This document shows positions 30,984 through 32,343 of a stretch of DNA of 64,000 nt, one piece after another. The notes below the pieces were generated by a model. It did no database searches, was not told where the DNA came from, and was given only the letters and a program-made list of their open reading frames with translations. The stretch lies in assembly GCA_001442985.1 (NCBI GenBank), contig LDYB01000006.1, positions 1 to 64,000 of the forward strand, written 5' to 3'. The DNA comes from Armatimonadetes bacterium DC. Lineage in GTDB: Bacteria > Armatimonadota > Fimbriimonadia > Fimbriimonadales > GBS-DC. Both the position numbers and the translations under genes were made by a program. Every line of letters starts with the position of its first letter. Position 1 is the first letter of the stretch.

Positions 30984-31010
30984 GACTCCAGAAATTACGG
31001 GGTGAAGCCG

Positions 31011-31033
31011 AAAATCTGGGACTCCAGATTTTT
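31011..31033 (+). terminator. Terminator after uvrB
   Basis: AAAATCTGG (31011-31019) and CCAGATTTT (31024-31032) form a perfect 9-bp inverted repeat with loop GACT, ending in a run of five T. It lies 28 bases after the uvrB stop and overlaps the -35 region of the flgM promoter. Confidence 0.7.
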
Positions 31034-31049
31034 CGAAGCCTGCCGATAA
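31023..31049 (+). promoter_or_regulatory. Sigma-28 (FliA)-type promoter of flgM
   Basis: GCCGATAA at 31042-31049 is an exact match to the sigma-28 -10 consensus. Eleven bases upstream, TCCAGATT (31023-31030) matches TAAAGTTT at five of eight positions. Transcription would start near 31056, just before the riboswitch. flgM is known to have a sigma-28-dependent promoter in enterics, so the context agrees. No sigma-70-like box is seen in this gap. Confidence 0.6.
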
Positions 31050-31067
31050 TTGAAAGCAGGCAGTATG

Positions 31068-31191
31068 CTGAGGCAGAAAAAGGCAAACCTGCAGCGATGC
31101 AGGGGCGCAAAGCCCAAGGGTCTGCTCAGAAGGCAGACAGCCGGGTTGCCTGCCTCCGCGCTGATAGCAAATCAGCAGAGTAAGGAGGCAG
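31068..31191 (+). promoter_or_regulatory. Cyclic-di-GMP-I (GEMM) riboswitch controlling flgM translation
   Basis: Conserved aptamer blocks are in order. AAAAAGGCAAACC (31077-31089) leads into a hairpin CCTGCA/TGCAGG with a GCGA (GNRA) tetraloop at 31094-31097. GGCGCAAAGCCC (31104-31115) follows, then hairpin GTCTGC/GCAGAC, then AGCCGGGTTGCC (31139-31150). P1 pairs GAGGCAG (31070-31076) with CTGCCTC (31150-31156). The expression platform is visible: CTGCCTCC (31150-31157) is also perfectly complementary to GGAGGCAG (31184-31191), the ribosome binding site of flgM. Ligand-stabilised P1 and the sequestering helix exclude each other, so c-di-GMP should turn translation on. A small hairpin GCTGAT/ATCAGC lies between them. 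Confidence 0.88.
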
Positions 31192-31195
31192 AACG

Positions 31196-31480
31196 ATGCA
31201 GATCACATTTGAGGAAGTACGGCGAGCGGTGAAAGCCTATCGGGCGGCGGTGCAGGCACCGATCCCGAAAGAGCATGTGCCAGAGCCGGTTCAGACCTCG
31301 CCCGAGGCGGATCAGCAACTGGCGCGTGAGCTGGCGCGGCAACTGGTGCAAATGCCTGATGTGCGCGAAGAGCGCGTCAACGAGGTCAAAGCCAAACTCG
31401 CCAGCGGGACCTACCGCGTCTCGTCCGAGATGGTCGCGGGAGCCATCATTCGACGCGCCCTTGCCGACAAAATCCGCTAA
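31196..31480 (+). CDS. flgM: Anti-sigma-28 factor FlgM
   Basis: The 94-residue protein carries the FlgM C-terminal sigma-28-binding region: ARELARQLVQMPDVREERVNEVKAKLASGTYRVSSEMVAGAIIRRAL (residues about 43-89). The N-terminal part is polar and likely disordered, as in other FlgM. FlgM holds FliA inactive in the cytoplasm until the flagellar hook is complete. GGAGG at seven bases precedes the ATG and is the strand captured by the riboswitch. It is followed by parA. No other flagellar structural gene is in the window. Confidence 0.9.
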   Translation: MQITFEEVRRAVKAYRAAVQAPIPKEHVPEPVQTSPEADQQLARELARQLVQMPDVREERVNEVKAKLASGTYRVSSEMVAGAIIRRALADKIR

Positions 31481-31491
31481 CTCCGCACCGC

Positions 31492-31514
31492 ATGGGAGGC
31501 GAAATGCCTCCCAT
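31492..31514 (+). other. Hairpin at the parA start
   Basis: ATGGGAGGC and GCCTCCCAT form a perfect 9-bp stem with loop GAAAT. The stem contains the GGGAGG ribosome binding site and two of the three possible ATG start codons (31492, 31504, 31513). It may end the flgM message or limit parA initiation. Confidence 0.5.
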
Positions 31515-32343
31515 GCGCCCAAAACCTGCAGGAAAACCGCTCTCAGGCGAGAACCCTTTGCATGTGAGCCAGCACTGTCGGGTTCTCGCTGTGGTGAATC
31601 AGAAGGGTGGTGTGGGTAAAACCACCACGGCAGTCAATCTGTCGGCGGGACTTGCCACAACAGGCGATACTGTCCTCCTGATCGACGCCGACCCTCAGGT
31701 AAACGCCACAAGCGGGCTGGGCGTGGCAGAGCGCGAATATACCCTGTTTGACCTCTTTCAAGAGGAAGCAACGCCTGAGCAGGTCATCACCGAAACAGGA
31801 CGCCCGAATTTGTGGCTTATTCCCGCCAGCATAGACCTTGCAGGGATCGATGTGCTTTTCGCCTCGCGAATTGCTCGTGAAACAATCCTCAAGCAGATTC
31901 TTCAGCCTCTACGCGAGCGGTTCCAGTGGATTATCGTGGACACACCCCCCTCTCTGGGATTACTGACGATTAACGCATTGACTGCCGCCGATGGACTGAT
32001 TATTCCCCTTCAGTGTGAATACTATGCACTTGAAGGCTTAACGCAACTGATGCGCACGATTGAGCTGGTGCGCCAGCACCTTAACCCGAACCTGACTATC
32101 TGGAAAGTGTTGCTCACGATGTACGATACACGCACACGCCTCGCGGAGCAGGTGGAATCGGAAGTGCGTAAGTTCTTTGGCACGAAGGTGGCGCAAACGG
32201 TGATTCCGCGCAATGTGCGGATCGGCGAGTCACCCAGTTTTGGGCAACCTGTTATAGAGTACGATCCCCGTTCGCGGGGGGCACACGCATATCTGGAATT
32301 TGTGAAGGAGGTGCGCGAATATGGCGCGTCGCGGTCTGGGTAA
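31492..32343 (+). CDS. parA: Chromosome-partitioning ATPase ParA/Soj
   Basis: The protein is 283 residues from 31492 and shorter from 31504 or 31513; the true start is uncertain. The conserved core begins CRVLAVVNQKGGVGKTTTAVNL, the deviant Walker A motif of ParA ATPases, followed by LLIDADPQVNATSGLG and the Walker B-like IIVDTPPSLGLLTINAL. ParA forms ATP-dependent dimers on the nucleoid and moves ParB-parS complexes. parB overlaps its end by 23 bases, the usual parAB order. It lies 12 bases after flgM, so the riboswitch transcript may extend into the partition genes. Confidence 0.93.
   Translation: MGGEMPPMRPKPAGKPLSGENPLHVSQHCRVLAVVNQKGGVGKTTTAVNLSAGLATTGDTVLLIDADPQVNATSGLGVAEREYTLFDLFQEEATPEQVITETGRPNLWLIPASIDLAGIDVLFASRIARETILKQILQPLRERFQWIIVDTPPSLGLLTINALTAADGLIIPLQCEYYALEGLTQLMRTIELVRQHLNPNLTIWKVLLTMYDTRTRLAEQVESEVRKFFGTKVAQTVIPRNVRIGESPSFGQPVIEYDPRSRGAHAYLEFVKEVREYGASRSG

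Follow-up and report, generated by a model that had tools for sequence, protein, structure and literature searches.

A c-di-GMP-I riboswitch in front of flgM in Armatimonadota: a predicted translational ON switch inside a putative sigma-28 feedback loop

The second messenger c-di-GMP usually shuts down flagellar genes via protein receptors. In Salmonella, flgM is partly transcribed by sigma-28 and thus subject to negative feedback; the checkpoint is the export of FlgM, and we know of no riboswitch that acts on the Salmonella gene. In C. difficile, the c-di-GMP-I riboswitch Cd1 precedes the flgB operon and terminates transcription of this early operon, which contains sigD, while flgM is SigD-dependent and has not been described there as riboswitch-controlled (PMC5386303, PMC3649979). 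In Streptomyces and Rubrobacter, c-di-GMP binds the RsiG protein together with WhiG (PMC8325347). The GEMM riboswitches Vc1 and Vc2 of Vibrio cholerae have gbpA and a tfoX-like gene as their targets (PMC12564702). In line with the original prediction for the locus studied here, which had considered control of flgM by a GEMM element to be apparently undescribed, no description of riboswitch control of flgM was found in open-access full text, subscription papers not being covered.

The locus resides in a window of 64,000 nucleotides, by which we mean the whole stretch of DNA that was analysed, and is made up of the following features:

31023-31027, + strand: degenerate -35 element TCCAG (consensus TAAAG), a poor match in the window
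31042-31049, + strand: -10 element GCCGATAA of the predicted sigma-28 promoter, 8/8 match
31070-31076, + strand: 5' strand of P1, GAGGCAG, the partner of 31150-31156 in the ligand-bound form
31072-31153, + strand: c-di-GMP-I (GEMM) riboswitch aptamer, RF01051, 57.9 bits
31094-31097: GNRA loop GCGA, enclosed by CCTGCA/TGCAGG
31150-31157, + strand: switching strand or anti-Shine-Dalgarno (anti-SD) CTGCCTCC, pairing with P1 and with the Shine-Dalgarno sequence (SD)
31160-31176, + strand: inner hairpin GCTGAT-AGCAA-ATCAGC joining anti-SD to SD, predicted by folding; 85.8% of cells paired in 15 leaders
31184-31191, + strand: extended SD GGAGGCAG, 7 nt from GGAGG to ATG
31196-31480, + strand: flgM, anti-sigma-28 factor, 94 aa, PF04316 and TIGR03824

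The open reading frame at 31196-31480 encodes FlgM, with 47.2 bits for PF04316 (cut-off 25) and 48.4 bits for TIGR03824 (cut-off 40.75). The original identification of this gene as flgM is upheld by both curated cut-offs. The gene is present as a single copy, starts 42 nt behind the 3' end of the aptamer and lies in the order uvrB, leader, flgM, parA, parB, a neighbourhood common to most of the window's family and not found in the other families examined. A genome scan with the FlgM alignment returned nine named loci, and these named relatives belong mostly to Armatimonadota (bacterium HR15, uncultured Armatimonadetes, Fimbriimonadaceae). The same genome encodes a FliA-type sigma factor (G000:C4:48684-49358; 242 bits) as well as FlhA (866 bits), with three flagellin matches and six GGDEF matches, and both sides of the proposed circuit therefore exist. 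Between flgM and parA we also noted a perfect 11-bp hairpin without a T run (GCATGGGAGGC-GAAAT-GCCTCCCATGC, 31490-31516), within which GCCTCC is complementary to the flgM SD.

A separate observation concerns a sigma factor with Pfam sigma-70 regions 2, 3 and 4 that is fused to a degenerate GGDEF domain (L099:14399-15685, - strand, corresponding to G000:C17, ~32.4-33.7 kb) and whose gene adjoins type IV pilus-like genes. An alignment across 18 genomes of the order shows loss of the catalytic GGDEF motif along with an invariant RxxD I-site motif five residues upstream, a pattern that suggests a sigma factor carrying its own c-di-GMP receptor.

When the window was searched with cmscan, the RF01051 match at 31072-31153 (+) exceeded the gathering score of 35 and covered the complete model from position 1 to 87 with an E value of 1e-8 for the whole window. 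It is the single RF01051 GEMM in the 2.85-Mb genome. The conserved blocks GGCAAAC, CGCAAAGCC and 3' GCC are all present along with the GNRA tetraloop, and they form invariant columns in A1, an alignment of 15 leaders from the window's family. The Infernal check against RF01051 that had been put forward with the original prediction hence gave a covariance-model match, and the presence of all conserved GEMM blocks and of the GNRA hairpin was borne out by the alignment. Aligned to Vc2, whose ligand contacts we take to be numbered G20, A47 and C92, the aptamer has canonical contacts throughout, with G20 at 31082, A47 at 31109 and C92 at 31149. That c-di-GMP is the ligand is inferred from these contacts, binding data not being available.

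The switching strand CTGCCTCC pairs perfectly with two partners, forming 8 bp with GGAGGCAG (31184-31191) and 7 bp with GAGGCAG (31070-31076). The competing pairings foreseen for this strand are therefore exact; P1 covaries and the SD hairpin is predicted. P1 comprises 12 pairs in A1 with 89% of cells paired, and six pairs show changes on both sides, compensatory examples being GAGACAG/CTGTCTC and GAAGCAG/CTGCTTC. The covariation score of P1 was reached by none of 500 shuffles, and slid registers performed far worse. For the anti-SD/SD pairing, 92.5% of cells are paired over the 15 leaders, and in the window shuffled anti-SD regions never matched the real SD pairing (0/200, z -4.9). Where the anti-SD strand changes from C to U, the P1 partner becomes A, and the SD stays G with a G-U pair being kept. 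In two relatives (G001 and G023), SD and anti-SD differ jointly from those of the window (TGGAGGTTG/TGACCTCCG and TGGACAG/CTGTCCG). RNAalifold, run on the alignment without a given structure, returned the SD-sequestering hairpin. A scan of the leader yielded neither a terminator-like site on the + strand nor a sigma-70 promoter, and a transcription terminator platform was rejected on the basis of the former result. According to the modelled pairings, the layout is that of a translational ON switch, with P1 and the SD hairpin competing for one anti-SD strand and without a terminator.

The leader folds better than its shuffles (z -2.9). All energies are model values at 37 °C, and the trend was unchanged at 60 °C. 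In the free leader, the probability of the SD being unpaired is 0.18 on average (15 leaders) and 0.00 in the window, and it reaches 0.71 and 0.77, respectively, when the aptamer core and upper P1 are enforced. The P1 state of the window lies 3.6 kcal/mol above the SD-hairpin state, a predicted gap that ligand binding could pay for. Across the family, forcing P1 lifts SD accessibility well beyond the free value in 13 of the 15 leaders at 37 °C; in the other two (G007 and G014) the SD is predicted to be open without ligand and remains unchanged. Folding further indicates that the SD-hairpin state also permits a register-shifted P1 (AGGCAG/UUGCCU), so the states are not simply P1 on or off. In the unbound fold, the shifted P1 pairs the strand that contains C92 and should, as we infer from the model, hence block ligand binding.

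In principle, the same riboswitch could work with the opposite sign, such that the ligand lowers flgM and c-di-GMP favours sigma-28 genes. Cd1, the flagellar c-di-GMP-I riboswitch of C. difficile, is indeed an OFF switch (PMC5386303), and the shifted P1 is able to coexist with the SD hairpin. The ligand-competent P1 and the SD hairpin are mutually exclusive, because this P1 uses the anti-SD strand itself. An OFF switch is at odds with the gain in SD accessibility upon forcing P1 in all leaders except the two already open ones, and on an anti-sigma factor it would make c-di-GMP promote flagellar genes, contrary to its usual role. We therefore regard the OFF sign as improbable. The ON switch that had originally been proposed is supported by anatomy and constrained folding, without ligand or reporter data.

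As far as comparison of leaders can tell, support for the ON platform is confined to the window's family, in which 12 of 15 leaders pair anti-SD with SD better than shuffles do. Elsewhere the same is true of some leaders in families f4, f5, f12, f17 and f37 and of hardly any in f3, a larger family with very short spacers, or in f21 and f26; the layout of family f8 is similar, and folding gave mixed results for it. The comparison does not support one SD-pairing platform shared by the entire phylum. Outside the window's family the platform is not conserved, and the ON sign is predicted for this family alone. Leaders from f10, f21 and f40 (L126-L130, L137, L140, L141, L144) carry GTTTGCCTTTTT or a near copy 3' of the aptamer. 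This element is complementary to the aptamer's AAAAAGGCAAAC, which suggests an anti-aptamer platform of another type.

A second alternative is that the aptamer senses a different ligand, either cGAMP or the ligand of the c-di-GMP-I-GGC variant. The model for the latter, RF03167, scores 58.9 bits in the window, marginally below its cut-off of 59, and passes this threshold in 11 genomes of the class. Its consensus ACGCGAAG, however, has a G at the A47 position, while the window reads CGCAAAG with A at 31109, and A occupies this position in all 15 family leaders. Identity with the GGC variant was rejected for lack of this distinguishing G. Selectivity for cGAMP is contradicted by position 20, which is A in cGAMP-selective GEMM forms and G here. 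We hold a ligand other than c-di-GMP to be very improbable.

The link between aptamer and gene was followed in 61 genomes of the order Fimbriimonadales (phylum Armatimonadota) and in a sample of the phylum outside the order. GEMM elements occur in 47 of the 61 genomes, and all 47 aptamers lie upstream of a flgM match, on the same strand and at a distance of 23-191 nt. The flgM gene is present in 52 of the 61 genomes, and of the five flgM genes without a GEMM match, three are preceded at the expected place by a GEMM-family match below threshold. Outside the order, 43 genomes from 12 families carry the GEMM-flgM pair; inspection of 11 unlinked flgM loci revealed three further pairs, giving 46 of 85 flgM-bearing genomes in at least 12 families. 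The pairing is conserved across the phylum Armatimonadota. Within the order, GEMM was found in 46 of 54 genomes with flagellar FlhA versus one of seven without it (Fisher p 3e-4). This value overstates the association because related genomes are not independent, and more weight rests on how widely the pair is spread among families. For other phyla, a plasmid search meant as a starting point turned up no more than partial and weak matches. One near-complete genome of 5.2 Mb (G041; L103, L155) has GEMM-flgM and a FliA-type sigma factor without FlhA or Flg_bb_rod matches, so the circuit may have non-flagellar targets.

That the aptamer has decayed and no longer influences flgM, as its single copy and the weak -35 element in the window's genome might suggest, is scarcely credible in view of core residues that are invariant in 15 genomes, compensatory changes in P1 and retention of the aptamer before flgM though gene neighbourhoods changed.

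Alignment of the DNA upstream of 90 GEMM-flgM leaders from the phylum revealed the pattern CTAAAG-N15-GCCGATAA. In 53 of the 90 leaders, at least seven of the eight -10 positions agree with this motif, compared with 3% of shuffles, and CTAAAG usually stands 15 nt before it. The flagellar sigma-28 consensus consists of TAAA at -35 and GCCGATAA at -10 (PMC8325347). The window's genome has four exact copies of the bipartite pattern and two with a single mismatch, and the two one-mismatch sites immediately precede a flagellin gene and a FlgB-like gene (FlgB named from sequence only). Transcription starting near 31056 would yield a leader of ~140 nt that includes the aptamer. With a sigma-28 promoter motif before the leader, flgM is probably made by the very sigma factor that FlgM inhibits, a dependence inferred from the motif. 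Since such a predicted promoter precedes most leaders, FlgM synthesis looks like a c-di-GMP-gated sigma-28 feedback loop.

Two further observations were made on this region and motif. Behind uvrB, a terminator-like hairpin (GAAAATCTGG-GACT-CCAGATTTTTC, 31010-31034) was seen by eye and not reported by the scan; it overlaps the weak -35 region of the flgM promoter. At another locus (L175; G000:C23:163862-163889, - strand), an exact sigma-28 promoter match lies 19 nt before the gene for a 290-aa protein that is HDOD-signalling-like in appearance.

We consider it highly probable that the c-di-GMP-I riboswitch turns on translation of flgM and does so within a sigma-28 feedback loop. In the proposed sequence of events, sigma-28 would transcribe the leader from its own promoter. 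At low c-di-GMP, CTGCCTCC would fold onto the SD GGAGGCAG, flgM would be poorly translated, and so sigma-28 would stay free. At high c-di-GMP, P1 (GAGGCAG/CTGCCTC) would be locked, the SD exposed and FlgM made, which would then hold sigma-28, and late flagellar genes would fall. The aptamer, the identity of FlgM, the conserved linkage, both pairings and the promoter motif support this proposal in silico; ligand binding, switching direction, sigma-28 dependence and the effect on motility are inferences. The poor -35 element in the window, the two relatives with an open SD and the absence of binding or expression data count against it, as do the register-shifted P1, the lack of a conserved platform in other families and the GEMM-flgM pair of G041. 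The original prediction was right about riboswitch, target and competing pairings; it lacked the sigma-28 promoter, the phylum-wide conservation and the clade-specific SD platform.

With somewhat less assurance, we favour the view that gating of the sigma-28/FlgM loop by c-di-GMP through RNA is the ancestral motile-to-sessile switch of the Armatimonadota, with platforms being rebuilt per family and the aptamer-target pair remaining unchanged. If so, the flgM messenger would be both a sigma-28 product and a c-di-GMP sensor. Evolution would then keep an aptamer-gene pair while swapping the expression platform. A second messenger would act on an anti-sigma factor solely through RNA and from within a feedback loop, in a compact circuit that unites promoter, aptamer and brake in 450 bp and is found across a little-studied phylum.

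The aptamer belongs to a known class and is unremarkable within it; what is new is the flgM target and the gated feedback circuit. With Vc1 and Vc2 it shares aptamer class and ligand contacts, but its target is flgM. As in Salmonella, flgM appears to be under sigma-28 negative feedback, yet here a riboswitch precedes the gene. Like the RsiG-WhiG system, the circuit would let c-di-GMP silence a FliA/WhiG-family sigma factor via an anti-sigma factor; unlike in that system, RNA would control the synthesis of FlgM, a different anti-sigma factor. Cd1 belongs to the same aptamer class and lowers the output of a sigma-28-type factor (SigD) at high c-di-GMP, as the circuit proposed here would do for sigma-28. 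In contrast to Cd1, however, the target is the anti-sigma factor itself, and the predicted sign is ON, at the level of translation.
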